Positions 28,803-58,506 of a DNA stretch of 62,593 nt are shown here, piece after piece; the stretch's first letter is position 1; every line of letters begins with the position of its first letter. Source of the stretch: a virus; IMG/VR virus record IMGVR_UViG_3300042914_000630, positions 1-62,593 of that record; one strand, given 5' to 3'. The position numbers were made by a program, and so were the translations under genes. The notes below the pieces were generated by a model. It did no database searches. It saw only the letters and a program-made list of their open reading frames with translations, and had not been told where the DNA came from.

Positions 28803-30485
28803 ATGAAGCCACCCCCAGAGGTCATAGACGACTTCCGTAATCACCTATACTTTTGTTTCAAGTATTTGGGTCTAGGTGAACCCACCCCACTCCAGTATGC
28901 CATAGCCCATAGGCTGCAGGACGGTCCTAGTGACCACATCCTACAGGCAGGGCGAGGTGCTGGCAAGAGTGTAATTACGGCTTGTTATGTTTCGTGGATT
29001 CTACTACGGAATCCCAATACTACAGTACTTGTACTTTCTGCTACGGCTGACAAGGCCATCAAGTTCGTGTCGCAGACCAGATCAATCCTGACTCTGGTTC
29101 CCTACATGAAGACCCTTGAGCCACAGGAGTTTGACAAGGACAGCGCATTCGGATTTAATGTAAACAATAGAACTAAATTCACTCAGGATCTATCCGTTAC
29201 CGCCAGAGGTATCACCTCCCAGATCACAGGTCTACACGCAGACAAGATCATTGGCGATGACATTGAGATCCCTGAGAACTCAGACAGTCCACAGGCCAGA
29301 GAGAAACTCTGGGAGAGATGTCTTGAGCTTGAAAATGTAAAGAACAAAGAAGAAGATTGTTCAATTCGATTCCTAGGTACGCCACAATCCAAGGACTCCG
29401 TATACAACAAACTAGGTGGCATATACAAAATTATCAAGTTCCCCGCAGTAATGCCAGACTTGGATAATGCAGAGGATGTTGAAGATGTTGATACCTATGT
29501 GTTGCGATTGGGCTTGGAGCCGGGTTGTTCGACTCAGCCGGAAAGATTCTCGGATGAGAAACTTGCTGAACTTGAAGCAAAGATTGGTCCTACAAACTTT
29601 GAACTCCACTATAAACTCAAAACGACTTCAGCAGACAACAAGAAGTATCCGCTCAGGCTTCAAGACCTGATCGTTATTGATGTCGATCCAGAAGTATTTC
29701 CCGTAAAGGTAGTCCATGCAAAGAGCGTGGTCAATCGACGGGTATCCTCGTTTGGTATGAAGGGAGATCTGGTCTATGAGCCGATGCACATTGAACCTAA
29801 GTTTGTCCCGTACTCACAGACCGTTCTCTTCATTGACCCCTCTGGTCGTGGCGCGGATGAAACTGCAATATGCGTTGCGTCATTCGCTCATGGTTATGTT
29901 GTCATCCATGAACTCCTTGGCATTCAGGGTGGATACGACACGCCAACATTAAAGCAAATCTGCAAGTTAATCAATCAGTACGATATTAGTCTAGTTCGAT
30001 ATGAGTCCAACTATGGTGATGGTATGTTCGGAAAGATCCTTGCACCAGTAGTCATGCAGAACTGTGGTCAGGTAGCCATTGAGGAATTCAAGGTATCTGG
30101 TCAAAAGGAAGTACGGATAATTAATACCCTTGAGCCTATCATGTCTCAACATAGACTTGTAATGGATACTCAGGTATTGCTTAACAAAGATAATCAAATT
30201 CAGATTACCAGAATGCAGGAAAAGCGTGGAGCACTAAAGCACGATGACCGTGTGGATGTCCTTGCTGCTGCCGTATCTTACTGGACTGATGCCTTGGCAA
30301 TCGACCCAGAAAAAGAAATGGTTGTCAGGCAGGAAGAAGATTACAAGAACAAAGTAAAAGAATGGATGAGTAACAAGAGATCCCTAGGTATTCTAGGAGA
30401 AAGAATCTCTGGTGCTATCCTATTAAATGGAAAAGAACCAAAAGAAAAGAAGTTTGGTAAATCCATACTAAGGAGAAAACGATAA
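28803..30485 (+). CDS. Terminase large subunit (T7 gp19-like)
   Basis: 560 residues from the ATG at 28803, which has TAGGAGGC upstream. A longer reading from TTG at 28722 would begin right at the hairpin and is less likely. ATPase: QAGRGAGKS with Lys55 (Walker A) and KIIGDDIEIP (Walker B). Nuclease: FIDPSGRGADET, YESNYGDGMFG and HDDRVDVLAAA, all close to T7 gp19. It cuts concatemers and drives DNA into the head. Confidence 0.93.
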   Translation: MKPPPEVIDDFRNHLYFCFKYLGLGEPTPLQYAIAHRLQDGPSDHILQAGRGAGKSVITACYVSWILLRNPNTTVLVLSATADKAIKFVSQTRSILTLVPYMKTLEPQEFDKDSAFGFNVNNRTKFTQDLSVTARGITSQITGLHADKIIGDDIEIPENSDSPQAREKLWERCLELENVKNKEEDCSIRFLGTPQSKDSVYNKLGGIYKIIKFPAVMPDLDNAEDVEDVDTYVLRLGLEPGCSTQPERFSDEKLAELEAKIGPTNFELHYKLKTTSADNKKYPLRLQDLIVIDVDPEVFPVKVVHAKSVVNRRVSSFGMKGDLVYEPMHIEPKFVPYSQTVLFIDPSGRGADETAICVASFAHGYVVIHELLGIQGGYDTPTLKQICKLINQYDISLVRYESNYGDGMFGKILAPVVMQNCGQVAIEEFKVSGQKEVRIINTLEPIMSQHRLVMDTQVLLNKDNQIQITRMQEKRGALKHDDRVDVLAAAVSYWTDALAIDPEKEMVVRQEEDYKNKVKEWMSNKRSLGILGERISGAILLNGKEPKEKKFGKSILRRKR

Positions 30486-31318
30486 TGTTTGACCCCGTTT
30501 CAATAGGTGTTATGGGTGGTTTATCGCTTGCTCAGGGAGTCTTTGGTGCGCTTGGTGCATCAAGTCAAGCCAAAGCTCAGGCTATGGCTGCAGAAATCCA
30601 GCAGCGTAATGCAAACTTTCAGGCACAGTGGCAAAAGGAAGCGCAAGATAGAAACACAATGCGCCAGTTCCAAGCCAATCTTGAAAGAAATATTCAAATA
30701 GAAAAAGCAGCCAACAAAGAAAGAGCGATGGCTGAGCTTTATTTAGATAAGACTTTTTCAAATCAAAAGAGTACCCTCAGCAAGCAGACTGCACAAGTCA
30801 ATGCTCAGTTCTTGGCAGCAACCACAAGACGGGGAATGAACCCAACTAGTGGTACAGCCCGAGCCTTGTTCCGTCAGAACATTGAGTCGCTTGGAAATAA
30901 CATGGTGGCTCTAAAGTTAAATCATAGAAGTGCATATCAGGATATTGTAACTCAGCAGCAAGCAAGACTTGCTCAGAGGGCATCATCCATCAGCCCTGAT
31001 CTTGGTGTCTTTATCCCAGCTAAGGGTGGCATTCCAGATAATTCTAGTGCTGCTTTGACAACAGGGCTTATTCAGGCCGGTCTACAGGGCGTTGCAACAG
31101 GAGTTAATACTTATCTAAAATATGGTCAGCAACCAAATCCAAGCCAAGGAGGAGGAAACTCTTCATCTCCTATGCCTTTCTCTGAAAGAGCTGGCGGTGG
31201 AGATACTATGGGAAGCGGTTATTCTGGTCCTTATTCTGGTAGAGGCGGAAATTCACTCCCAGCTTATACAGGAATGGGTAGTGCATCTTTTTCTGATATT
31301 CAAACTTTTCAATTTTAA
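30485..31318 (+). CDS. Internal virion protein (T7 gp14-like)
   Basis: 277 residues. A hydrophobic N-terminus (GVMGGLSLAQGVFGALGASS) is followed by a long Ala/Gln/Lys helix and a Gly/Ser-rich tail. This is the layout of the smallest T7 inner-core protein, which inserts into the host outer membrane during ejection. It starts in overlap with the terminase stop. Confidence 0.78.
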   Translation: MFDPVSIGVMGGLSLAQGVFGALGASSQAKAQAMAAEIQQRNANFQAQWQKEAQDRNTMRQFQANLERNIQIEKAANKERAMAELYLDKTFSNQKSTLSKQTAQVNAQFLAATTRRGMNPTSGTARALFRQNIESLGNNMVALKLNHRSAYQDIVTQQQARLAQRASSISPDLGVFIPAKGGIPDNSSAALTTGLIQAGLQGVATGVNTYLKYGQQPNPSQGGGNSSSPMPFSERAGGGDTMGSGYSGPYSGRGGNSLPAYTGMGSASFSDIQTFQF

Positions 31319-31331
31319 ACGGAGGTAGTTA

Positions 31332-32384
31332 ATGGCTAAGAAAGATCTTATGTCTTCTTTGCAGAAGATTGCTTCTGAATCTATAACCGGAACAGTAATA
31401 CCGGAAGCAAAAGAACAAGAATTAATTGATACTCAAGATGTTGCAAAGATTAAGCAGATTGCTGAAGTTGCAAATCGAATGTATCCAAATAACCCAGCTA
31501 ATCGTTTTAATTACTGGAAAAAGAATATTAGTATAGATGGTATGTCAAACACTGCTAGAAATGAGTATTGGAAGATATACCAAAACACTCACCCAAGAGG
31601 TTTAGATGGTGCTAAGTCTGATTTTGTAAATGTAACTCTAAACGAAATTAACCTAATTAATGGTGTTTCAAATAAAGAGTTTTTCTTACGAGATCGTCTT
31701 GATAACTCACCATCATGGGCTAAGGAAGTACTTGAACCAGAACTTGCAAAGCTATCAACAACTGTTGCAAATGCAAACCTAAGCAAAGCAAGTCAAGTCT
31801 ATAGCAAAAGCCTAGAAGAAAAGGTTAACACCTTTATTCTTCAGAATGATTTAGATCCAGATGTTTCCGTTGAACAACACACAGCCGACTTTGTAAGATT
31901 AGAGCAACTGAATTTATTTGATGTTGCTAATGTTATTAATGGTCGTATTGGAATCTATGGACAGAACAATGAGTTTGTTCCCGGCTTTGCTGTAGAAAAT
32001 AGACAACAGGTATTCCCTAAAGATCAGTTCGGTGCTCCTTCGTTTGCTGAGCAAGTATTAGTTCGGGATAATGCAATCAACCCAATCAAACAAGCAGTTG
32101 ATATGAAGCTCTCGGCACAACGCTCAGCTATTTCAATGCAAGAGCGACAGTCTGCAATGGAAGCCACAAAGCTTCTTGAGCAAGGCTTCTATACTATTGA
32201 TCGCTGGGGAGAGGCATTTTCAATCAATGCCGAAAGCAGTCCTAAAGACCAGATCATTCGTGGTCTTAAAGGAGAGATTGCCAGCAAAAGAATCACTAAT
32301 GAACAAGAACTTGCTGAAAGTATTTACACAGCAATGACAAAGTATCCAAACATGTTCGGAGATTTAAATGGCAAAACAGAATAA
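31332..32384 (+). CDS. Putative internal virion protein
   Basis: 350 residues, mainly helical, no motif recognised. It lies between the gp14-like and the large internal proteins, with a GGAGG site before the start and a 17-base overlap with the next gene. It may be one part of the T7 gp15 function split over two genes. Confidence 0.6.
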   Translation: MAKKDLMSSLQKIASESITGTVIPEAKEQELIDTQDVAKIKQIAEVANRMYPNNPANRFNYWKKNISIDGMSNTARNEYWKIYQNTHPRGLDGAKSDFVNVTLNEINLINGVSNKEFFLRDRLDNSPSWAKEVLEPELAKLSTTVANANLSKASQVYSKSLEEKVNTFILQNDLDPDVSVEQHTADFVRLEQLNLFDVANVINGRIGIYGQNNEFVPGFAVENRQQVFPKDQFGAPSFAEQVLVRDNAINPIKQAVDMKLSAQRSAISMQERQSAMEATKLLEQGFYTIDRWGEAFSINAESSPKDQIIRGLKGEIASKRITNEQELAESIYTAMTKYPNMFGDLNGKTE

Positions 32385-35300
32385 TGTAAGTAAAGAACTA
32401 CAAAAGTTACTTGGTGGTTCTAAGAATTTAGATCCCATTGAACAAACAATATTTGAGACAGGCCCACAGGCTGGATTCACTCCACCAGAAGTTGCCAATG
32501 TTTATCAAGAAGGTCAGACACAGTTTGCTCAGCAGCAGATCGGTGTCGAAGCTGCTAACATTGATTGGTATACTCTTGGTCAGAATGCTTCTCAGCTTGC
32601 AGCACAGACTTACGAAAATGTACTAGACTACCTTATTACATCTAAAAGAAATGGTGTAGTTGAATTAAAAGATAAGTATCAGAGTACTTTGGATGATTAT
32701 TATCTCCAGCAAAGTACTGAGCTTTATAACGCAGACAAAGAAAAAAGACCACCAAACTCCAAAGTAATCAATGATTTGGTAACACGAATCAAAGAAACTA
32801 AGGATGCTTTTAAGACTGATGCTATTAAAGTATTAGGTAATGATGGTTACTTTGCGGAAGATCTTGATGTACCAAGCTTAGGTCTTAAGTACCAAGAGTT
32901 GGCTGTAACATCTAGAAACTCTTTACGAGATATTGATAGGTTTGCAAATAAGCTTCTCTATGAAACACAGAGAGTTGTTAATGGTCTTGTCAAAGAAGAA
33001 GAAGGCTTTAGTGCATGGAAAAATGGAGCTGGTGTTAGAGATCCTAAGATTCAACCACAAGTTTTCATGGGAGTCTTGCCACTACCAACTCATCCAGACA
33101 ATCCAGAACTACCTATCATTGGATTTGAAAAAGACATGTCTGGTAATTGGATGCCCCTTTCAGCAACTGATCCAATGACAGGCGCACAAAACGCTCCTGT
33201 AATTCAAAGAGCAGATGGTAAGTGGTATCTAAGACCTGAATATATTGATGCTTTTAAATCAGCAGATGAGTTTAAAACACTGATAGATATTGATCAGTAT
33301 TCTTACGGTCCATATAGTGCTGTAAGTAATGCAACAGGTCAGTTTACTGTTGATATGGAAAGAATAATAAAAGATGTTGTAGAAACTGAACAGCCAAACA
33401 TTGGAGTAGCTGCTTATGTTTCAACTGCTCTTGCTAATATTCCAGATCATCTTGCTGATAATGCAATAGATCGTATTGATGGTCTTGATGAAGATCAGAA
33501 GATCAAGCTATCTATGATGCGTATGCATGTCAAGAATGGTTTTGAAATCCAGCAGCTTCCGCAAATCACAGGTCTTAAGAGAGATCTACTTAAGTCTACT
33601 TATGGTAGAGTGCAGAAACTAAAAGCAGGAACTACAATTTATAATGTAGCAGAAAACGAACAAGAAGTAGAAAAGTTTGCGGAGTTAACTTCAATTCTTT
33701 CTGCTGTTATGCAAGAATATGGCTCTCCTCTTGACGAAGATGCTCTGTCTTTTGAAGCTACTGGTCAAAATCTAATTGACGAAACACCAGAGATGTCTGC
33801 TTCTGCATTGCTCACACAGAATCCTCAGCTTGTCCCAATGGTTGCTAGAATTGCTGCAACACTGGATGCGAACGAAAATCTGTATAGAGATAATCCAGAA
33901 CAAAAAGCAGAAGACATGAAGAAACTATTGAAGGAACATATCAAAAGAGAAGGCTATTTGGTAATGCCAAATGATGCTACAGGTATTCCTAATATTCTGT
34001 ATGCACCCAATCTAATGTACTTTAATGGTGCAAGAGATACACTACTAAGCCCACAAAAGCTTGCTGGTCTACCAGAGGAAAAGCGAGAAAGACTGATAGC
34101 TGATCCTAGAGAACAAAACAAAGCTCTTGCCAATGCTCACCTATTCAGCACAAACTGGACAGGCAATGTTGGTGGTGAAAACCTAGAGGATATTGCTCTT
34201 CGTTTTGCTCAGCGAATAAGCCCTAAGCTTGATACTGAAGTCTTTACGACTTTAGTTAATGGAGCTGTTTATACTAAGCGAGATGATAAAGGAGCTAGAG
34301 TTCGTAGCGCAATGCCATTGGCAGAATTGCTGCGACTAACTATTGCTGCAACTCCATCAGCAATGGAAAAGCAAGGCTTGACTCCAAGCATTAGCGAAGA
34401 AACACGACCATCTTTTGATGATCGCTTGGCATATGCTAAAAAGATTTATGATGATCTTCCTATGATGTCAGAGCAAGGAGCTATTCCTTGGCTACAAGCA
34501 GACCTAGATATCACACAGCAGAACTATAACTTTGTGGGAACACCAAGAGGTGGCCTCCCTATTAAGTTCCTTGAAATCAAAGGAACATCGGGAGTCGATT
34601 ACAAAGATGTTATGACTGTTCGTGGTTCTAAAGAACTTGGTGCTATTACTCCAAGAACAAATGATGGTATGCCTTTAATCTTTATTCCATCTCAAACAGA
34701 TAAATCTGGAGATGTAGCTAAAGAGTTTAAGGATGGCTTGAATAGATATCTAGAAGCAGAGCAAGGTGATTACAACATTGCTCCTGTATCTTACGATGTA
34801 GAGTCTGTTCCCAACAGAGGACCAATGACTCCTGCAGAGGTCTTTAGTCAAGTAAATGAATCATATCTACCAGCTAGAGCTGCTATCTTGGTTAGCGTAG
34901 ATGAGCCACTTTCATCTTTTGAAAAGGCTCTCACATTCTTTACACAAAACAATACAGCATTCCATGATATTGTTAAATCAGATCCTGAGTTGACAGATGT
35001 TCAGAAGCTAGCTTGGGAAGTTGCTATTACCCCAGATGGTAAGCAAATCTACAATAAGAACAAAGCACTGTTTACAGAAGAAAACCTTAGGCTTCTTTAC
35101 GACAAGGCTGTAGCAAATGGAGCTAAGACCCATGTTGATTTCATGGGTTATATCTTCAATGCAATGAGAGTCTATGGCGATAATAAGGAGCTTGTTGGTG
35201 GTCGTTTAACAGGTGTAGAATATGTAACCAAGTCAACATCAGAAGACTTCTTAGGAAAAGAAGGAAAGAAAGCTGGCATTGTTCTTTATGAACCAACCAG

Positions 35301-36573
35301 CCCAGCTTTCTATGATGGCGTGTTTGATCGTCTAAATCAAGGATATAACCTCTACAAAAAAGACGGTCAGTTCTATATGTTTACACCCGACAAAGCAACT
35401 AAAGATTTTACTATGGTTATTGATTCTTCAAAGCCACAAGAAGTAGTTGAATCTGAAGTTGGTAAGTTTAAGGTTAAGCAGGATAGAGTTAATAAGGCTA
35501 AGCAGATGTTCTTCACTGGAAAGAAGATGCCAAGTTCTAAAGGCATTGCTGAACTAGCCAGACCTTCCACAATCTCTGCAGAAAAGATCGACAGCTTCCA
35601 TAAAGATTTTATGAAGTACTCTTATGATAATGATCTGCAGGAGTTTACTGATTTCCGTTTTATTGATTGGCCTCAGATTTATGCAGAGCACGGTCGCTTC
35701 CCCTTTAAGCCAGCAGAAGTTCCTGAGCAATACTTCTTGCCCGGACATTCGGCTAGCCTAAGCAGACGCGGTAAACTAGCTCTTAAAAATATCAGAGACA
35801 AAGACGCTACCTTTATTGGAGCTGGTGTTGATGAAGCAATGAAGGATGTTGAACCTTTTGTTTCATTAGATGGCTATCAGCCACATCAGGTTCTCCTAAA
35901 ACTTAATGCTTACTTACGAGGAGCTAGTGCTGGTCTAGTATACGGTGCGTTGGATGCGGCAAAGACCGAAGAAGATGTCTACCGTATGGAAGGCGTAAAG
36001 CAAGAGCCAATGAAGTGGTTCAATAAAATCTTTGGTAATGACGATACAGCTCTGTTGCGAAGAAGCAAGATGCCTTCTGGTGATAACATAACAATTCCAG
36101 AAAAGGCATTTAATCTTGTTAACTTTGCAAAAGCTACTGATTATCCTTATGACTCAAAAGCATTTGGTGGTCTTTCTCAACAGGCGTGGACTACGATTAA
36201 GGAATCTAAGTTTACTCCACTAGAGTTAGAATATCAAATCAGAGTACAGGCTGCAACAACGCATAAAGACAAGAAAGAAATTGAGCAACTAAATGCCGCA
36301 CTTGAAACTATTGCAAACGACTCGTTTGTATTGGATTCAACAAAGGCAAACCAGTTTGCCACTGAGCTTTATCAGGCATCCTTGTCTCCACAAGAAACTA
36401 TGACAAAAGAAGAAGCAAAGGCATTGGCTTTCAATCCAGCTGCATTGGTTGAGATCAAAAGACGATACTTTGCTATGACACTAAAACCAGATGGGTACTT
36501 TACCCGTCCCGGCAAGAATGCTTTTACTTCAAGAGTAAGCATGATTTCCGATATGCTTAAACAACAACAATAA
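32368..36573 (+). CDS. Large internal virion protein (gp15 position)
   Basis: 1401 residues, about twice T7 gp15 (747), mostly helical with a Gln-rich N-terminus (SKELQKLLGGSKNLDPIEQT). No catalytic motif recognised. Codon use is AT-rich with many AGA codons. By position it should form part of the inner core and be ejected into the host envelope. Homology to gp15 is not evident by eye. Confidence 0.65.
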   Translation: MAKQNNVSKELQKLLGGSKNLDPIEQTIFETGPQAGFTPPEVANVYQEGQTQFAQQQIGVEAANIDWYTLGQNASQLAAQTYENVLDYLITSKRNGVVELKDKYQSTLDDYYLQQSTELYNADKEKRPPNSKVINDLVTRIKETKDAFKTDAIKVLGNDGYFAEDLDVPSLGLKYQELAVTSRNSLRDIDRFANKLLYETQRVVNGLVKEEEGFSAWKNGAGVRDPKIQPQVFMGVLPLPTHPDNPELPIIGFEKDMSGNWMPLSATDPMTGAQNAPVIQRADGKWYLRPEYIDAFKSADEFKTLIDIDQYSYGPYSAVSNATGQFTVDMERIIKDVVETEQPNIGVAAYVSTALANIPDHLADNAIDRIDGLDEDQKIKLSMMRMHVKNGFEIQQLPQITGLKRDLLKSTYGRVQKLKAGTTIYNVAENEQEVEKFAELTSILSAVMQEYGSPLDEDALSFEATGQNLIDETPEMSASALLTQNPQLVPMVARIAATLDANENLYRDNPEQKAEDMKKLLKEHIKREGYLVMPNDATGIPNILYAPNLMYFNGARDTLLSPQKLAGLPEEKRERLIADPREQNKALANAHLFSTNWTGNVGGENLEDIALRFAQRISPKLDTEVFTTLVNGAVYTKRDDKGARVRSAMPLAELLRLTIAATPSAMEKQGLTPSISEETRPSFDDRLAYAKKIYDDLPMMSEQGAIPWLQADLDITQQNYNFVGTPRGGLPIKFLEIKGTSGVDYKDVMTVRGSKELGAITPRTNDGMPLIFIPSQTDKSGDVAKEFKDGLNRYLEAEQGDYNIAPVSYDVESVPNRGPMTPAEVFSQVNESYLPARAAILVSVDEPLSSFEKALTFFTQNNTAFHDIVKSDPELTDVQKLAWEVAITPDGKQIYNKNKALFTEENLRLLYDKAVANGAKTHVDFMGYIFNAMRVYGDNKELVGGRLTGVEYVTKSTSEDFLGKEGKKAGIVLYEPTSPAFYDGVFDRLNQGYNLYKKDGQFYMFTPDKATKDFTMVIDSSKPQEVVESEVGKFKVKQDRVNKAKQMFFTGKKMPSSKGIAELARPSTISAEKIDSFHKDFMKYSYDNDLQEFTDFRFIDWPQIYAEHGRFPFKPAEVPEQYFLPGHSASLSRRGKLALKNIRDKDATFIGAGVDEAMKDVEPFVSLDGYQPHQVLLKLNAYLRGASAGLVYGALDAAKTEEDVYRMEGVKQEPMKWFNKIFGNDDTALLRRSKMPSGDNITIPEKAFNLVNFAKATDYPYDSKAFGGLSQQAWTTIKESKFTPLELEYQIRVQAATTHKDKKEIEQLNAALETIANDSFVLDSTKANQFATELYQASLSPQETMTKEEAKALAFNPAALVEIKRRYFAMTLKPDGYFTRPGKNAFTSRVSMISDMLKQQQ

Positions 36574-36609: not shown

Positions 36610-39600
36610 ATGTTAAATTTCTCTGAAGGTTTTCCCATAATTCCAGAGACACCATCGGCGGGGCCATTGAGACTCAATGCTTATTCCCCCGGTCAGGTAC
36701 TGGCTGCTTATGACGGAGATGATCTAGAGTTCCTAGATCCATCTCAGTTAACCAATCCACTCGTTTATACCCGAGGGGATATCAAGAAGGTAGAAACCTA
36801 TAACCAGTACTACGCACTAACACAAGCTCTTGGTGCTTTGGAAGGAAACCTTACTGGTGTATCAGACGGCATTCTTGGTATTGCCAATGATCCCACAAAG
36901 GGTGCAGCATGGCGACAACTAATCGGTAAAGCTCCACTAACACCTATTCGTTATGGTGATTCTGAGCTTACTCAAGAAGCCATTGATGCAGATCTAAAGA
37001 GTCTAAACATGATGCTGGAGGCCGAGGAGGGGGTAGATTTTTCTACCCTCTCCTACGACCAGCTATCAGATAGACAAAAGCAAATAAGAGATATCACTGC
37101 AAAAGTTTCGTATGCTGAGGCAAGAAACAAGGCAGCTGAAAAGCTTGGCTTTGATTGGCTTGATCAAGTCGCAGCACAGGATATCTTTGGAATAACAAGT
37201 ATACTATCAGATAAAGAATTGGCTGGAGATACTCAAGATATTGAAAAGCTAATGAACAGAGAAGATCCAAACTTTGATTATAAGTCATGGTTTGGTACTA
37301 AATTCTCAAATGAAATTGTTTCTCAGTACCTTGTTGAAAATGGAATCACAGACGATTTCATTAGCGACTCTCCAAATGCAGATCACGCAATGATGCGTAT
37401 CATGGCTCAGTTGAATACATCCGATATTCAAAGACGGATGGAAACTTATAAGCCAACAAATCTAGATTCTTTTAGATTACTTAGAGATGGCTTTATCGGC
37501 GGTATGATCAACAGCCCAGACACAATTCCAAGCGTTGTAGCTGAACTAGGATTAGTCGGTATTTCAACCTTGGCTGGTTCTTTGCTTGCTCCCGGCGCAG
37601 GAACCGTTGCTGGTGCTGCTGCTGGTGTAGCCGCAGCTGAGGGTATCTCTACGGCACTAGGCGCATCTTCAGTCTTTATGAGACTCAAGAAAGCATATGA
37701 TGCTTCTACCTTTGCTGGTCGTGCTTTACGGGCAACTGCCTATACTACAGAAACCCTTTATAAGCTTCCATTGGGTATGATGCCCGGTTATGTAGCAAAC
37801 TTTGGTTTGATTCGCGGAGCTACTGCATCATTTACTTTCGGTGTTGTACAGGGTGGTCTTGCAGAGTACGCTAGACAAAAGCGAGAGATTGCTTTTGGTG
37901 CAGCAACTCTATATGCCAATCCAAATGCAATGACCGATTACAATGCTTCTCTAATAGCTACAACTGCTTTAGAGTCTGGCCTATTGTTCGGCGGTGTCTT
38001 CGGTCTTGGTGGTGGCTTACTCCGTAGTGGTATTGGTGCATTTCAGAATAGAGTAAAAGGTGTAATGATCGACCCCAAGACAGGGTTTAGAAACATTGCA
38101 GACACTCGCTTTACTTTTGAGAACACCCCGCTAGGAAACACAATAGATAATATCCGTGGCTTTGTAAACAGAAAAGAACGAGCACTTATTGATGCTCCTG
38201 TCACTGAGAAAGCAGCTGTAGAATCTGTAATTGAAAACACAGAAGTAACTCCAGAAAAGTTAGCAGCAGATACAGAAGCACGGGTAGATCGTGTCGAAAC
38301 AAGAGAGGCTACTGCTTCTCCTGATGCCGCAAGAGCGACACCAGAAGACGCTGGTACACGCAGATATGAAGGCGAAACAATCCCTGAGTATGTTGCCCGT
38401 GTTGGTCCTAACAGAGCAGTCCGAAACATCTATGAGATTGTTACCGAGGTTGCTAGACGAACAAAAGCAGAAGGCAGTGAGAGACTTATTGAAGCCTCTG
38501 AACAGTTTGATCAGATGTCTATTCAAGACCAGATGCGTGTTCTATTCAATACCAAAAAAGTATTGGATGACGCGAAGAAAGCTGAGACAGATGCTGTCGG
38601 TCTTCCAAAAGAACGAGAGCGTCTTTATGATGAGCTAGAGAAAAGTCGAAAGGCTTGGTTTGCTCGTCTTAAGAAGAAGCTACCAAAGGAAGCTTTCAAA
38701 GCACTTAAGGAAGAGCTAGAAGAAAACAAAAAGGCTTCAGGCAGAAAGCTACCTGAGCTTCTTAAGGAAGCCAGAGATACAGCAAAACCAGCTGCAGAGC
38801 GCAAGGCTGCTTCTGATGAGATGGCTGCTAAGTTGCTTGAGTCTATTTCAGCAGCTGCTGCTTCTCCTGAGCGTGAAGCCCAGATCAAAGCACAAGTTCC
38901 ACCAGAAGTTATTGATACAGTAGATGCTGCAATTGTAGAACACAAGCTTACGGGTACAGTAAGTGACGCAACTGCTGAAGCTCTTAAGGCTGATATTGCA
39001 GGTGTAAAGAAGCAACCAAAAGTTGGTCCTGTAGATAGAATGCTAAATGCAATTTCAAAAAGCATAATTGCAGCTAAGATTGATCCCAATCGTGTAAAAA
39101 AGATTAAAGCTGTAATCAGAGATCCTGATGCATTCGTTAGTCTTGTAGATGGCGATAAAGATAATGCTACTAGGTTCTTTGATTATCTAAATGAACTGGT
39201 TATCAATAATATGATTTCCAGCGCAGACAGACAATTAGTACTTGCTTCTGTTGTTCATTTAAACTTTAGTTCAAAAGCTTTTGGTATTAATTTTAAAGTT
39301 GAAAGCATTCTTGACAAAGCAGGAAACAAGCAAGAGGATCTTATCGGCTCGTTTAGACGCTCTAATAACTCCTTGATTATGAACTTGGATTTTGCTGGTA
39401 CTACTAATGATTTAAAGAGAAGACGAGCAAAAGCTTTACTCCATGAGCTAGGTCATGCTTATTTTGCTCACGAAGCAAGTGGTGATAACTATCTATCGGC
39501 TTTGCGTCTGTACAATAAAACAATTATTTCAAGCGGCATTGAGCTGATGCGGTATCGACCAGATACTCCAGATCCTCTATTGAATTCAGGTTTCTTAAAT

Positions 39601-42600
39601 CAGTATCATATGCAGAATGCTGAAGAAGTCTTTGTTCAGACCTTCTCTCAGATTCTGTTCTCAGAAGCAGAGGCTGTTATTGGAACATGGAGTCCAATGC
39701 AAGTCAGTCGAACAAAGTTTGTTCTAGACAAGATTGCAACCAGTGTTGCACTAGCTGCTACACTGTTTGATAGTTCAGAACACTACGCAGCTGCAAAAGA
39801 AATCATTGACTCTATTACAGACATTGATAATAAAACAAAGTCATTCATCTCAATGCCAACATTGGCTAGAGCATATGGCAATCTCCACAGCATGCTTGAC
39901 TCAGTTGATGATCTGGCTGAATATAATAAGAAGCTTGATGCTGAGTTCCCTGATAGAGATATGAAACCATATCATCTAAATAAAGCTGAGCTAACTCTAT
40001 TTAAAAATAGCAGTAAAGATCCCGGCTTCATAATTGCAATGACCATTATGAAAGCAGATCAAAAGAGTTTTGTCGATTCTAATGGTAACTTTACTCGCGG
40101 CATTAATGATCTAGTAAAAGCCTATAAGGAATACAAACTAGCTCAGCTAACCTCAATGCAAATTAAAGTAGCATTCTTGGTTGGTTCTAATGATTATAAA
40201 GTACTCAAAGGATTGGATAAATTTGATAGACTTGACTTTGTAAAAGACGAGTTGTTCTCTCTTTATTCCCGTGAGTTTGTAAATGGTAAATCAAAGCGAA
40301 CAATCCTACCAGCTACCTATGAAGATCTGGATGCTTTACGCAATCTAGATACAATGGATTATTTAGATCCCACTGGTAGCAGTGTTCCTTATGCTGTCGG
40401 TTTCTTTGGAACAACTGGTGATATTCTAATTGATGCTATTGAGTCAGTCGTTCCTACCGGAAAAGCTCTGGCTTCTGATACACTATCTGCAGAACAAGTA
40501 TCTGCACTAGTTGGAAGCTTGAGAGTAGACGATGCATTAACCACCAATCTAATAGATCAGCTCCGAGTTTATTTGGATAACATTGGATTGGAAGAACTAT
40601 CTGAAGTTGTTATAGAAGCACAGCATCTTGCGTATATTCAGAAACTGAAAAACGATGGCATGCTGGATATAGAAGAACCTTCTAGATCAACTCCAGAATG
40701 GTCTAATAAACAAATAGCTATCACATCTCTTGGTTTGATGCTGAAAGAAAAACTATCCGTAGATCAAATCAAAGTAATCTTGAAAAACAATCTTTCAAGT
40801 TCTATGTATACTTATCTAATCAATAATCACAAGATACCAAAGAAATTGATTGGTGCGGTTAGTAAACTACTGGAAGAAGATGGTATTGTTCTAAACGAAG
40901 ACTCTAAAACATGGGGTATTAGAACAAGTAAGCCAGCAACTAAAGTTACAGCGGCTGCTCAAGAAGCAGCAGTTAGCTTTGAGTCTACAGCTCTAACAAA
41001 GGATAATCTAGTTGATGTTGTTTCTCGTATTATCAAACAATCAATGCGAGGAAATGTTACAGACAATTACTTTGTAGATGCTGCTGGAAGTATGATTACG
41101 CCTAAGCCTGATGCAAAGACTGTGGGTAAAAAAGCTTATGCTGGTAACTTAGAGCTAATTCTCTCTAAGATTGAAAACGGTAGTTTAAAGACTGTTAAAG
41201 ATCTTATCGGTTATATTCACACTACCGCATTCAATCTAAAGAAGGCAGATGTAGCTGAAAGAGAAAGCTTAGAAACCCCAGATGGCGTAGAGAGAACTGT
41301 TGTTGAAGGTCGTCCAGCTACCGCTGCTGATAGAATTGTCACAACCAAAAAAGGTATTCGTAAGACAATTCTTACAGAAGCTCTGGATTTAAACACAGGT
41401 ACAAATGGTAGGCTGCTTACTGCAGAAGAAACCGAACTTGTTAATGTATTTACTACAGCACCAACCAACAAAGAAGCTGGCGTTAAACTTGGTGTTTCAG
41501 AATCAACAGCAGGAAGATATAGAAGAACTCTAATTGCCAAGCTTGTTGATGTCTTTGAGCAATCAGCAATCAGTTTGGATAGCGGCAGAGATCAGATTAT
41601 CTCTGGTCTAAATAAACACTTTGATACTGTAGAGAAAAAAGTAAATGCAGCTAAGCCAAACAGTGAAGAGGCTGTCATTAAAAAGGCAAAAGAAAAGAAG
41701 CCAAAGCCAGAAGCAGATCCCGTTGTTTCTGGAGCAAGAGCTTTGCAAACAGCGGCTTTAGCTGAAAAACTTAGAAACAAAAATCCAGAAGCTGTTATTG
41801 TTCCCTTGCCAAAAGACGCTGAAGGTGTTATGTACAAGGTTACTGATGAAGTTACTGGCAATGAACCAGAAAAGGTTTTCCGGCCTTCTGAACAAGCTGA
41901 TGCTGTTATGCATGGATCTCCAACAGCGTCTAAAGAAGCTGTATCGTTTGTTCCAAAGAAGCCTTTGCCCATGAACTATGGGACCAGTACAGATCTAACA
42001 TCACAGCCAAAGAAACTAGAAAGCACTCTTAAGAGCGCAAGTAGACTTGGTGTTGATGCTCTTGTATTCAAGGATGGTTCTGTAATTCCTGTTAATATCG
42101 AAGAACTTCCAGTTATCGGTAAGACAGAAGTTAAGAAAGAACCTGATGCTGAACCTGAAGTTACTCTCACTGTTGAGAATAAGAAACCAGTACTTAGCGT
42201 TATTTCTAAAGAGCGCAAGCCAACAGAACCAAAACCAAAGAAGGAAAACTTCCCTGTTAAGGTTGAAAAGAAGAAGCTGCCACGCAAACCAAAAGCAACA
42301 ACAGCTGCTCCTGAAACCACAGGACCAAGAATTCCAATGCCTCCTAAGAAGGAGGTTCCTGTTGAAAAGACTCCAAGTGATCAAGTAAAGACACCTGAGG
42401 TCGATGTCGTTGAGCGTAAGGTCAATGAAGACCCAAAGCTTTTACGACAGTCTGGAATGGATTCTAACTTCTTGAAAACATTCATTAAGAAGTATTGGGA
42501 GTCAAAGGTTGAGGCTGATGGTCGCAATACAATGACACCAATGTTTAAGAAAATGTGGTCACACTTTGTGAATGTAAACCAATACATTGCAGATGCCAAT

Positions 42601-46338: not shown

Positions 46339-46344
46339 ACCATA

Positions 46345-46380
46345 GGGGATACCTAGGGAAACCTAGGTATCCCCATTCTT
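46345..46380 (+). terminator. Terminator after the giant virion gene
   Basis: A perfect 13-base stem (46345-46357 with 46362-46374, including CCTAGG) closes on a GAAA tetraloop and is followed by ATTCTTTT. It ends the late operon. Confidence 0.85.
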
Positions 46381-46425
46381 TTATCGACATGTATTTGTAC
46401 AATCATGGTCACAGAGTGACCAATA

Positions 46426-46436
46426 GTTGGGGCTAC
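46426..46436 (+). promoter_or_regulatory. GTTGGGGCTAC motif, copy 2 (candidate phage promoter element)
   Basis: An exact copy in non-coding DNA, in the wider context CCAATA-motif-AGAAGA shared with copy 1. Not being constrained by a reading frame here supports a regulatory role. Confidence 0.5.
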
Positions 46437-46628
46437 AGAAGATATACCATAGGGATAACCTAGGTGTCTATGGATATCCCCTATAGGTTTTATTATTGTT
46501 TGTGTATAGTCTTAGCTAAGACCCCTAGGTTAACCTAAGTATATCCCTTGTTAACCACAGTTAATACATCAACAATAATAACAATAGAACAGAGCACTCC
46601 GGGGTTTAACCCCCCGGTTTGATCCCTT

Positions 46629-46773
46629 GTCGATTTCCTTGGATTCTAACGGGCCTAGGATGCCCGGAGAACCGCCGGGATAGCGAAGGTGGCCCTCGGG
46701 GTCATTCACAACATAAACCCCCTTATAGGGAATCCTAGGGCTGTATGTGTTTTAGAGCTGTCGATTTCCTTGG
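46629..46773 (+). repeat. Direct repeat GTCGATTTCCTTGG (two copies)
   Basis: Exact 14-base copies at 46629-46642 and 46760-46773, 131 bases apart. They may be binding sites or part of the end region; function unknown. Confidence 0.75.
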
Positions 46774-46941
46774 TAAGTCTTTTGGGACTCCCGTAAGTGT
46801 TTTACACAAAGGTTAAAGAAAGTTTAACTTTTAGGAAAATCGACTTAGGGGTAAAAAATTAGCGAAGGGGTATCCCCCGTAGGTACCTTACCCCTTCCCC
46901 CCGGCATCCCCCCTGCGAGTTACCGGACGCATGCCTGCGGT

Positions 46942-47002
46942 TCCGATAACCTAGCCGGGGCAGAGTCCGATAACCTAGGCTGCGCCCACGGGTGTTATCG
47001 GA
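46942..47002. repeat. Direct repeat TCCGATAACCTAG with competing inverted copy
   Basis: Copies at 46942-46954 and 46966-46978. GTTATCGGA at 46994-47002 can pair with either copy, giving two mutually exclusive hairpins. This would fit a structured RNA or a protein-binding array. Confidence 0.65.
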
Positions 47003-47128
47003 CGCTATCGGCAAAGTTTGACCGATTCTAGCGTGGTATCCCTTTCCATTGTCCCCGCCGATGCGAGGACGGGTAAATGCGGGAGCCTGATGAATCCCCT
47101 GCGTTCTTTCTGACGGAGAATCTACACA

Positions 47129-47431
47129 ATGGTTGGAACAAATCTCATGGCGGTTGTTGAGGAGTCCATCGGGAATCTCAACGGAGGCCGCGCACAACTT
47201 GAGCCTACCCTCACGGAAGTCGTGCGCCATGCTGCGGAGTTCTTCGGGAATGATAACCGTAGCATTCGCATGGTGGTGAATACGGTACTGGAATCGTGCG
47301 GCCATGATCGGGAATCGCGTGATGAAATCATCGAGGCTCTTTATCGGAAGAACATCATGGTCAAGAAGACCTATGCGGCGAATCCGATGGCGAAACTCCG
47401 CAAGAAGATCGCGGAGCAGGCGGCGAAGTAA
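47129..47431 (+). CDS. GC-rich early hypothetical protein
   Basis: 100 residues (MVGTNLMAVVEESIGNLNGG...) with a basic C-terminus. 36 of 60 bases are G or C in 47161-47220, well above most of the genome, so this pair of genes may be of different origin. CGGAG lies upstream of the ATG. No family recognised. The first gene after the non-coding region, hence probably an early host-takeover gene. Confidence 0.65.
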   Translation: MVGTNLMAVVEESIGNLNGGRAQLEPTLTEVVRHAAEFFGNDNRSIRMVVNTVLESCGHDRESRDEIIEALYRKNIMVKKTYAANPMAKLRKKIAEQAAK

Positions 47432-52524: not shown

Positions 52525-52600
52525 GGAAGGGTGGCTGAAAAGTAGTTAGAGCGCATGCCTTATAAGCGTGAATATGTGGGTGCAACTCCCGCCCCTTCCA
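52525..52600 (+). tRNA. tRNA-Ile (anticodon TAT)
   Basis: Acceptor GGAAGGG pairs with CCCTTCC. The anticodon stem CATGC/GCGTG has loop CTTATAA. The T arm GTGGG/CCCGC has loop TGCAACT. The TAT anticodon reads ATA. CCA is not encoded. The D stem is short. Confidence 0.8.
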
Positions 52601-52605
52601 CATTT

Positions 52606-52679
52606 GTCCCTGTAGCTCAACTGGATAGAGCAATGACCTTCTAAGTCATAGGCTACAGGTTCGATCCCTGTCAGGGATG
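52606..52679 (+). tRNA. tRNA-Arg (anticodon TCT)
   Basis: Acceptor GTCCCTG pairs with CAGGGAT. The D arm is CTCA...GAGC. The anticodon stem ATGAC/GTCAT has loop CTTCTAA, and the T arm is ACAGG-TTCGATC-CCTGT. Reads AGA, a codon frequent in the virion genes. Confidence 0.92.
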
Positions 52680-52697
52680 TTTACCAGAAAGGTTTGT

Positions 52698-52991
52698 ATG
52701 AGTAATAAGAATTGGGATATGCTGCGCCACGATATGGATGTATCCTGTCTACCTTCTTCCGAGTATTTGATTCATCTGTTTCAAACTTTGGAAGCACTTA
52801 AGAATAGGTGTGATGTTCTGGAGCGAGAGGCTCGCCTCAACAAGACTAAGTATTGTGATTTGATTGATGCTCTTGAGGCTAAGTTCAAGCCAGCAATGAA
52901 GTCACATATGTATCTCATGGATAATCAAGTTGAAGTTTATAGATATGTTGCTGCTCTAACTACCAAGAAAACTGGTAAGAAAAAGAAGTAA
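52698..52991 (+). CDS. Hypothetical protein between tRNA genes
   Basis: 97 residues from the ATG at 52698 (AGAAAGG upstream), helical with a Lys-rich end (KKTGKKKK). It separates the first and second tRNA pairs. Unrecognised. Confidence 0.6.
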   Translation: MSNKNWDMLRHDMDVSCLPSSEYLIHLFQTLEALKNRCDVLEREARLNKTKYCDLIDALEAKFKPAMKSHMYLMDNQVEVYRYVAALTTKKTGKKKK

Positions 52992-53009
52992 GTTTTTCTT
53001 ACAAGTATT

Positions 53010-53049
53010 CCAAGTATACAGCGGGCTTTGACCCCGCCAAGGTACTTGG
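53010..53049 (+). other. Two-stem hairpin between gene and tRNA
   Basis: The outer stem CCAAGTA (53010-53016) with TACTTGG (53043-53049) encloses GCGGG (53021-53025) with CCCGC (53033-53037). It has no T run, so a processing signal or RNA element is more likely than a terminator. Confidence 0.5.
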
Positions 53050-53055
53050 ATATAT

Positions 53056-53128
53056 GGCACTGTAGCCCAAAGGCAGAGGCAATCGACTCAAAATCGACCA
53101 AGTGTGGGTTCGACTCCCACCAGTGCTA
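53056..53128 (+). tRNA. tRNA with anticodon CAA (Leu by code, short variable loop)
   Basis: Acceptor GGCACTG pairs with CAGTGCT. The T arm is GTGGG-TTCGACT-CCCAC. The anticodon loop CTCAAAA gives CAA, which reads TTG (Leu). The variable loop is only five bases, whereas bacterial Leu tRNAs have a long arm, and the outer anticodon pair is A-C. Identity should be treated as open. Confidence 0.75.
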
Positions 53129-53132
53129 CTTT

Positions 53133-53205
53133 GGGTTGGTAGCTCAATAGGTAGAGCAGTTGACTTTTAATCAATTGGTTGAGAGTTCAAGTCTCTCCCG
53201 ACCCA
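53133..53205 (+). tRNA. tRNA-Lys (anticodon TTT)
   Basis: Acceptor GGGTTGG pairs with CCGACCC. The D arm is GCTC/GAGC. The anticodon stem GTTGA/TCAAT has loop CTTTTAA, and the T arm is GAGAG-TTCAAGT-CTCTC. A standard cloverleaf. Confidence 0.93.
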
Positions 53206-53224
53206 TTCCATAGAAAGGATTACA

Positions 53225-55899: not shown

Positions 55900-56087
55900 A
55901 GCAGAATAGAAACTACTATAGCGAAGAACATGGTTATGTATGCGACTGTCGCCCTTCAACAGAACCTTATGAGCAACTCTGTTGGTGCTGTCAGCAATAT
56001 GTCGATAACCTAAAGTCATACGAGGAGGACATTGATGACGAGACTATGGAATCAGCTGACGAACGAAGAGAAGGAGAAGCGGAATAA
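55896..56087 (+). CDS. Small Cys-rich acidic protein
   Basis: 63 residues with CDC and CWCC cysteine groups and an acidic tail. The GAGGAGG that serves the RNA polymerase start lies inside its 3' half, so the two are coupled by a 53-base overlap. Confidence 0.55.
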   Translation: MKQNRNYYSEEHGYVCDCRPSTEPYEQLCWCCQQYVDNLKSYEEDIDDETMESADERREGEAE

Positions 56088-58506
56088 TCTTCAAGTAGTT
56101 CTTGAAGAAGACATGCTCTGTCTTTCCGAGCGTAAGTATTGGGAGGCTTACAATGCTAATCCTGATGAGGGAATTCCAGAGCAGACTTTGATTGATGCAT
56201 GTGTGATCCATCTGACACCTTTCTATCAGCAGTGGATTGATACTATCTCAAGCAATAGAAAGACTCCTGAGTGGGCTGTTCCTTTGTTTGCCGTTGGTGC
56301 TGCTAAGATGGCAGACATTACCGTTCGTGCCTTGATTCTTGAATGGTTCAACTCTTCTTTCTGGGAGCGTAAGTATGAGGGAGATCTGTTCCCTCTGCCT
56401 ACGGCTCAGCATATTGCCCATGTCATTTCCGAGATGGTCATTGAGATCGTAGCCTATCAGCAAGCCAAGAAACAATTCCGTGAGGATTGGGCAAAGCAGT
56501 CACACTATCAGAAGAAGTGGACGCCCAAGCGTTGCAAGGCTTTTGCCTACAAGATGGGTACGCTTAACAAGAAGAACTTTAATAGGAAGCAGCGTGAGGA
56601 TTTCGGTCATCATATGCTGCGTATCGCTGAGATGTCTGAGATTATTCAGCTCAAGAACATTCGCAAGCATACGGGTAGGCGTTGGTCTGAGCGTGTGGTT
56701 GTTACCTTTACTGATGACATTCTCAAAGAGTTGCACAAGCGACACAAGGATGTCATTGCCAAGGCAGCTTTGCTCTATCGACCAATGATCGTTCCTCCTG
56801 TTGAGCATACGCTTACCAGCAGCGGTGGTAATGTACTGCCGTATGTTCGTAAGCCTGTGGTTCAGAAGTTCAAGGATGTCATGTGGGATGAGAAGGTTCA
56901 CCAAAAAGGTAGTACACCATCACAGACCGTGATCGACGGTCTTAATGTGATGATGCATACCGAGTGGACTATCAACGAGCGTGTGCTTGAGGTAATGGAA
57001 ACACTCTTCAAGAACAATACACGCGATGCCAATCTTCCTGCCTATGACTTCTCTGCCTTTGACTTTGCTGAGCCTTATCCTGCCAATGGAACTAAGGAAG
57101 AGCAAGCCAAGTGGTGTGCTCAGAAGGAAGAGGCATACAGCAATTGGTACAAGGAGGAACAGCTCCGTGGTCGTATGCTTGTCAGGCTTCAGCTTGCCAA
57201 GTCTATGATCCCGCAGAAGTTCTTCTATCATATCTTTACATGTGACTTCCGTGGTCGTGCTAACTCTGCCTGTGATCTTCTGTCGCCACAAGCTTCAGAC
57301 TTTGATCGTGGGTTGATCATGTTTGCAGAGCCAAGGAAGCAGACAACTAATGGTTTGTTCTGGCTTAAGGTACATGTCGCTAATCTGTTTGATCAGGACA
57401 AAGTTCCCTTTGCAGACAGAGCCAAGTGGGTTGATGACAACATGGCTATGCTGCGGCAGATCAATGACAATCCATACGATACTAGAAAGCTATGGGTATC
57501 AGATAAAAAGAAAAAGAACCCTAGCTTTCAGCGTCTTGCTGCAGTGTTTGATCTATGTCGTACTGATGGTATGACTCAGGTTGCCGTGCAGATGGATGGT
57601 TCCTGCAATGGTGTTCAGCATTGGGCTGCGCTTATGCGTGACCCCGTGCTTGCCAAGAAGGTGAATCTGATTCAGACAGAAAAGCCGCAGGATCTATATC
57701 AGTTTGTTGCAGATAGTATGACCAACAAAATGACTGAGGTTAAGGACGAAGACAGTAATAAGGGGCGGTGGGCTACCAAGTTTCTTGAGTATTGGGAAGG
57801 GGATATTGATAGGTCTGTTGTGAAGAGAGCGGTTATGACTGATCCATATGGAGTTACCTTCTATGGTATCCGCCGATACTGCAAGACCGAAGGACATCTT
57901 GATTGGGTAGGCAAAGACCAGATTGCTGGTGCAGTCATGGAGCTTGCCACCTTTATTGATCAAGCCCTCAAGGGTACATTGATCGAACCCAACAAGGGTA
58001 AGGCTTGGCTCAAGGTCGTAGCTGATATGTTCTCTGAGGTCGGTAAGAATGTTGAGTGGACTACGCCGTGTGGCTTTAAGGTTGTCCACCAGTACTATGA
58101 GATACTAACTAGACGATCAGTAGCCAAACTGTTCGACATGAAGGAGCTGCATTTCGGTGCTCCAGATAAGGAAACAATAGATGGAAGCTCAGTTAATCTG
58201 GCTATCTCTCCAAATTACATACACTCCTTGGATGCGAGTCATATGTGGTCTACCATCAAGCGAATGAAGGAAGCTGGTATTACACAATACAGCATGATCC
58301 ATGATTCGTATGGCTGTCCTGCACCTGATGTCAATCTGATGCGAGTCTATACTAACGAGGAGTTCCACAGAATGCACAGCACTAACTTGCTGGCTGATAT
58401 GCGGACTGAACTTATGAATAACATTGACATGGAGCTGCCGGATGTTCCCGAAGTCGGAGTATTCGACATGGATAATGTGCTTGATGCCGAGTACTTCTTC
58501 CAATGA
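56035..58506 (+). CDS. Single-subunit DNA-directed RNA polymerase (T7 gp1-like)
   Basis: 823 residues (T7: 883), from the ATG at 56035 with GAGGAGG seven bases upstream. Motifs: DGSCNGVQHW with Asp521 (T7 Asp537), VVKRAVMTDPYG with Lys597 and Tyr605 (T7 Lys631, Tyr639), and IHDSYG with Asp757 (T7 Asp812). The C-terminus EYFFQ keeps an aromatic foot. The region before SPNYIHSLD corresponds to the promoter specificity loop and differs from T7, so its promoters should differ too. It transcribes the phage middle and late genes. Confidence 0.96.
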   Translation: MTRLWNQLTNEEKEKRNNLQVVLEEDMLCLSERKYWEAYNANPDEGIPEQTLIDACVIHLTPFYQQWIDTISSNRKTPEWAVPLFAVGAAKMADITVRALILEWFNSSFWERKYEGDLFPLPTAQHIAHVISEMVIEIVAYQQAKKQFREDWAKQSHYQKKWTPKRCKAFAYKMGTLNKKNFNRKQREDFGHHMLRIAEMSEIIQLKNIRKHTGRRWSERVVVTFTDDILKELHKRHKDVIAKAALLYRPMIVPPVEHTLTSSGGNVLPYVRKPVVQKFKDVMWDEKVHQKGSTPSQTVIDGLNVMMHTEWTINERVLEVMETLFKNNTRDANLPAYDFSAFDFAEPYPANGTKEEQAKWCAQKEEAYSNWYKEEQLRGRMLVRLQLAKSMIPQKFFYHIFTCDFRGRANSACDLLSPQASDFDRGLIMFAEPRKQTTNGLFWLKVHVANLFDQDKVPFADRAKWVDDNMAMLRQINDNPYDTRKLWVSDKKKKNPSFQRLAAVFDLCRTDGMTQVAVQMDGSCNGVQHWAALMRDPVLAKKVNLIQTEKPQDLYQFVADSMTNKMTEVKDEDSNKGRWATKFLEYWEGDIDRSVVKRAVMTDPYGVTFYGIRRYCKTEGHLDWVGKDQIAGAVMELATFIDQALKGTLIEPNKGKAWLKVVADMFSEVGKNVEWTTPCGFKVVHQYYEILTRRSVAKLFDMKELHFGAPDKETIDGSSVNLAISPNYIHSLDASHMWSTIKRMKEAGITQYSMIHDSYGCPAPDVNLMRVYTNEEFHRMHSTNLLADMRTELMNNIDMELPDVPEVGVFDMDNVLDAEYFFQ

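Follow-up and report, generated by a model that had tools for sequence, protein, structure and literature searches.

Does a giant phage protein that probably enters the host with the genome carry a sigma-factor-like module, and what could such a module do at the start of infection? The question is raised by a 62,593-nucleotide stretch of DNA (hereafter the window) from an uncultured, T7-like phage. A 3242-aa protein encoded there was predicted, from the sequence alone, to contain a segment reminiscent of small ECF-type sigma factors, starting at about position 41180, which could redirect the host RNA polymerase. As far as can be judged from sequence comparisons, this segment is real, conserved, mobile and sigma-like, and it sits in a probable ejection protein.

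The giant gene and its protein

Homologues of the giant protein are present in nine IMG/VR contigs. Upstream of its gene (Table 1), the portal, major capsid, tail proteins, TerL and a gp14-like internal virion protein were recognised, while Pfam and PHROG searches with the neighbouring 1401-aa protein returned no matches. The window and two related genomes (67.4 and 66.2 kb) share the same circular order, namely the early region, RNA polymerase, replication genes, structural genes, TerL, ejection-type genes and giant gene. The giant gene is followed by a noncoding stretch (46339-47180) in which CCTAGG palindromes and hairpins abound and a 13-bp stem at 46345-46374 resembles a terminator; blocks of it are about 74-85% identical among three genomes, and an Rfam search of this region gave no match. 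The early region also includes four tRNA genes (Ile-TAT, Arg-TCT, Leu-CAA and Lys-TTT; 52525-53206).

By its sequence features, the giant protein is of the polyvalent type: it has a late-gene position and a zincin motif, and four of its relatives carry an ART-PolyVal domain. The zincin assignment is at the level of the motif, HE[LI]GHA near residue 945, which is conserved in nine of nine homologues in a region that matches no Pfam family. ART-PolyVal (PF18760) scores over the cut-off in four of ten records (L001, L003, L009 and L010) and is absent from the window copy, where the insertion point corresponds to about residue 1354, shortly upstream of the sigma-like segment. Two further insertions were observed. 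In L005, about 810 aa of different sequence (residues about 1350-2340; EEFQSDWHQKG ... GFDGVAWTTGQQQADRYN) occupy the ART insertion region and read as another polyvalent-type domain, with nothing significant in Pfam. In L003, a 210-aa insert in the Lys/Pro-rich region (residues about 2030-2240) is common to L003 and L006, absent from the other seven and also devoid of Pfam match. Polyvalent proteins are thought to be delivered with the DNA, and their own metallopeptidase may process them (PMC5512222). Given this context and the position of the gene, the giant protein is probably an ejection protein of this T7-like phage, injected into the host; gene position makes its packaging in virions and its ejection plausible.

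Table 1. Positions in the window of the giant gene, its internal features and relevant neighbouring genes
Feature	Position	Strand	Basis or remark
gp14-like internal virion protein gene	30485..31318	+	upstream of giant gene; phrog_805, E 5.8e-4
1401-aa protein gene	32368-36573		directly before giant gene; position of T7 gp15-like ejection protein
Giant polyvalent-type protein, 3242 aa	36610..46338	+	closes late/ejection block; open frame, TerL and gp14-like upstream
Zincin metallopeptidase motif HELGHAYF	39442..39465	+	HExxH in all nine aligned giant proteins
ART-PolyVal junction (L001, L003; more divergent L009, L010)	40671..40672	.	L001 compared with window sequence
Sigma-like module, residues 1455-1690	40972..41679	+	phrog_3512; AlphaFold2 model; fold-search matches mostly sigma factors
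Region 2.2-like helix TDNYFVDAAGSMI	41059..41097	+	hhalign onto E. coli RpoE VPDVVQEAFIKAY, low probability
Region 2.3/2.4-like helix GSLKTVKDLIGYIHTTAFNL, residues 1524-1543	41179..41238	+	invariant Y and N; alignment to RpoE TWLYRIAVN
Flexible linker between sigma-like domains	41251..41361	+	segment residues 94-130, pLDDT <50
Region 4-like four-helix domain with helix-turn-helix	41350..41562	+	model helices 127-143, 151-162, 166-173, 177-197
Helix-turn-helix NKEAGVKLGVSESTAGRYRR, residues 1620-1639	41467..41526	+	GerE/LuxR-type and sigma-type profile matches
T7-like single-subunit RNA polymerase gene	56032..58506	+	phrog_414, E 4.4e-144

Sigma-like features of residues 1455-1690

The three motifs quoted in the original prediction, GSLKTVKDLIGYIHTTAFNL, LTAEETELVNVF (residues 1603-1614) and NKEAGVKLGVSESTAGRYRR, do lie at those places in the giant protein, but the module that contains them begins earlier than proposed, at about residue 1455. 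Residues 1455-1690 matched the PHROG family phrog_3512, annotated as sigma factor, with an E-value of about 0.0021-0.0026. The same family ranked first among 38,880 PHROG families when the whole 3242-aa protein was used, with an E-value of only 0.048, and its single match across the six frames of the window fell on the module (E 3.9e-5 for this one record). A second sigma factor family, phrog_3282, matched the window at the module alone (E 0.0015, again for one record). The L009 protein, about 20% identical to the window copy in this segment, matched NCBIfam TIGR02937 (sigma70-ECF; E 1.3e-4) over positions 50-165 of the 165-position profile, a span that begins late in region 2 and takes in region 4, with 21.6 bits against a curated cut-off of 42.9. 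TIGR02937 gave no match on the window copy, Pfam Sigma70_r2 (PF04542) and Sigma70_r4_2 (PF08281) gave nothing at the segment, and no sigma-family score there exceeds a curated cut-off; an ad hoc sigma HMM placed the module barely above shuffled sequences.

Relatives outside this group of phages were sought with little return. A tblastn search of 50,697 phage records with the segment or with the C-terminal third of the protein revealed none, and none was found in the bacterial genomes searched. The L009 segment gave tail-fibre matches among phage records, which were set aside as chance. A PDB sequence search with the segment found nothing; PDB profile searches returned response regulators, DosR among them, as well as unrelated chains, and these were set aside.

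The segment of the window was modelled using AlphaFold2, with the nine homologues as alignment. The model (mean pLDDT 69.5) consists of two helical domains with a linker of low confidence between them, in the order of a sigma2-linker-sigma4 arrangement. In a PDB fold search, the first five ranks include sigmaB, WhiG and the ECF factor SigL (E 0.1-0.8), the two remaining chains being presumably sigma subunits, judging by their entries and lengths. Among the predicted viral proteins of BFVD, the top match was an RpoE homologue (E 0.027, probability 0.77, 208 columns), about 20 of the 23 function-named entries in the best 50 were sigma factors or RNA polymerase subunits, and target TM-scores reached 0.66 for short proteins resembling region 4. 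The sigma matches in both libraries extend over about 190-240 columns; the region 4-like domain by itself resembled DosR, NarL and sigma region 4. Foldseek E-values for this model are weak overall (0.03-1), and the poor PDB scores are probably due to a differing placement of the two flexibly linked domains. The L009 model is more compact, and its fold search led to helical proteins of other kinds, not sigma factors, a genuine weakness of the case that may reflect the thin alignment. The two-domain layout anticipated for the segment is thus backed by matches of different homologues in two family libraries and by the fold search of one model, each line being weak when taken alone and the L009 model lacking a sigma match.

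Direct profile comparison proved too weak to be decisive. With RpoE of E. coli and 15 further sigma factors, hhalign probabilities were at most 5.6%. In two broader alignments, the helix TDNYFVDAAGSMI (ITSEALQEALVNFF in L009) was nevertheless placed on the region 2.2 helix, LIGYIHTTAFN on FYTWLYRIAVN of RpoE, and the helix-turn-helix (HTH) on region 4.2. In the ECF motif WLyRIAxN, the W and N positions correspond to Y1535 and N1542. The pattern Y[IL]....xN, where Y replaces W, is found at the same place in all nine homologues; its Y and N columns are invariant, among few such columns, as is the recognition-helix R in the HTH. In sigma70, the QE pair of region 2.2 contacts the beta-prime clamp. 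This core-binding pair is kept in L009 and L010 and reads VD in the window and VE or TE in most others.

Taken together, these observations lead us to propose, tentatively and as a serious possibility rather than a probability, that residues 1455-1690 form a derived sigma-70/ECF-like module that is ejected within a polyvalent protein and docks on the host core RNA polymerase. A different and somewhat unlikely reading would give meaning to the C-terminal half only, as a DNA-binding HTH of the LuxR/sigma4 type, acting for instance on the phage genome while it is packaged or ejected, preceded by helices unrelated to region 2 and with no involvement of the polymerase. Indeed, the best HMM evidence falls on the HTH, whose scores are also compatible with LuxR/GerE (GerE 0.0082) and DosR-type response regulators; the best local match in the hhalign sliding-slice test was the HTH alone, on region 4 (24.0 versus 22.8 for reversed controls, a very small margin); and HTH domains do occur now and then in polyvalent proteins (PMC5512222). 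However, the TIGR02937 match of L009 begins in region 2, the fold matches are about 190-240 columns long in both libraries, and the invariant Y and N belong to the region 2.4 motif, all of which count against this reading.

Cassette exchange and selection

Few parts of the giant protein are less conserved than the sigma-like module. Along the giant gene, L009 and L010 are 98% identical in nucleotides (median), and all bins below 85% fall into two blocks, L009 residues 1341-1540 (ART) and 1681-1940 (sigma-like module), separated by a conserved spacer. When the window is compared with L001 (median 95%), identity is lowest in bins inside the module (1481-1560 and 1641-1660; 67-82%), with three isolated bins outside it at 82-83%. 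From these sequence patterns, the ART segment and the sigma-like segment each behave as an exchangeable cassette. Such swapping between near-identical phages suggests an adaptive role, possibly in matching the polymerases of different hosts.

Both dN and dS are raised in the module in the L009/L010 and window/L001 pairs, as expected from the replacement of divergent alleles rather than from relaxed constraint. The ratio dN/dS stays under 1 in every comparison, mostly at 0.2-0.5, the exceptions being short segments in other pairs (0.98 for the linker in one, 0.70 for the region 4-like part in another). In most comparisons, the module therefore appears to be under purifying selection.

Because divergent blocks are exchanged between relatives, the module is separable in evolution, which agrees in part with the original prediction that Lys/Pro-rich linkers following the module could make it a separable domain. 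A short Lys/Pro-rich stretch is indeed near the module (residues 1693-1704), but the main one (1836-1930) does not directly follow the HTH. No protease cleavage site was found, although an HExxH zincin motif is present in the same chain.

The proximity of the two cassettes raises the possibility, to our mind quite unlikely, of a sigma-derived docking adaptor that does not initiate transcription and instead holds the giant protein on the host RNA polymerase, so that ART, where present, can ADP-ribosylate that enzyme, or blocks sigma exchange. ART-PolyVal does lie just upstream of the module in the four records that have it, both cassettes differ between L009 and L010, and the injected T4 protein Alt modifies RNA polymerase (PMC5512222). 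Against this, L004, L006, L008 and the window keep the module without ART, and the near-identical L003 and L006 differ in ART presence. ART is thus gained or lost alone, and the module does not need it. As for a chance resemblance or a decayed remnant, that is, a helical spacer of an ejection protein with no polymerase-related role, the low conservation of the module, the weakness of every individual score and an L005 copy that is hard to align would fit, but we consider it very unlikely given that several independent libraries agree on sigma, that the frame is open in all nine homologues with dN/dS below 1, and that in L009/L010 the boundaries of the module coincide with a divergent block.

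Proposed role and comparison with known systems

In the proposed reading of residues 1455-1690 as a derived sigma-like module, the giant protein would most likely be packaged and then ejected with the genome at the start of infection. The module, with its region 2-like part, flexible linker and region 4-like HTH, would dock on the host core RNA polymerase through its sigma-like surfaces and favour transcription of the incoming early region until the T7-like polymerase of the phage is made. Gene position and the polyvalent, ejection-protein setting make entry of the module with the protein and redirection of the host polymerase plausible. What the analysis shows is the resemblance in sequence and fold, conservation among relatives, cassette exchange, purifying selection in most comparisons and the late-gene position; packaging, ejection, polymerase binding and promoter choice are inferred. 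We regard as rather doubtful the fuller version of this scheme, in which the injected module is a virion-borne sigma factor, joining the host core RNA polymerase and guiding it to the early region of the phage.

The T7-like RNA polymerase gene of the phage lies downstream, with about 9.7 kb between it and the giant gene, and under the T7 scheme the host RNA polymerase must first read this stretch. Sigma70-like promoters are not in excess in the early region (15 found versus 18.7 expected); as this promoter model may not fit the host, the count neither supports nor excludes the proposal.

A first comparison is with ECF/sigma-70 factors (TIGR02937; E. coli RpoE). The module has the same order of region 2-like helices, linker and region 4-like HTH, its Y and N stand at the W and N positions of region 2.4, and it gives weak matches to these families. 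It differs in being embedded in a 3242-aa chain rather than encoded by a separate gene, in scoring below the curated cut-offs and, in the window, in lacking the core-binding QE. With polyvalent proteins (PMC5512222), the giant protein shares a very large size, a late-gene position, the zincin motif, domain swapping and, in relatives, ART-PolyVal, which the window copy lacks. Sigma goes unmentioned in the main text of the paper describing these proteins (Iyer et al. 2017, PMC5512222), and a literature search, thin on subscription papers, returned none describing virion proteins with a sigma-like domain.

Among ejected proteins, the giant gene recalls those at the T7 gp16 position, being the last of the ejection-protein genes, after the gp14-like and 1401-aa genes. 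Its product is much larger and multi-domain, and a PDB profile search with its C-terminal third gave no match to solved structures. Phage N4 (Schitoviridae) ejects a polymerase of about 3,500 residues with two smaller ejection proteins, starting transcription (PMC12633501). The giant protein studied here is comparable as a very large, probably ejected protein. The contrast with N4 drawn in the original prediction proves apt: Pfam and PHROG searches detected no RNA polymerase domain in the 3242 residues, the T7-like polymerase is encoded separately, and the module would act through the host enzyme. T4 Alt shares the proposed theme of virion-delivered control of the host RNA polymerase, and relatives of the window carry an ART cassette; it differs in that their ART belongs to another clade and the window copy has none.

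Injection of a polymerase (N4) and of an enzyme that modifies polymerase (T4 Alt) is known from phages, and a delivered sigma-like module would represent a third route to taking over transcription at time zero. It would extend the repertoire of polyvalent proteins by a sigma-derived domain and, if the module works as a sigma factor, the phage could steer host transcription from the moment of entry.
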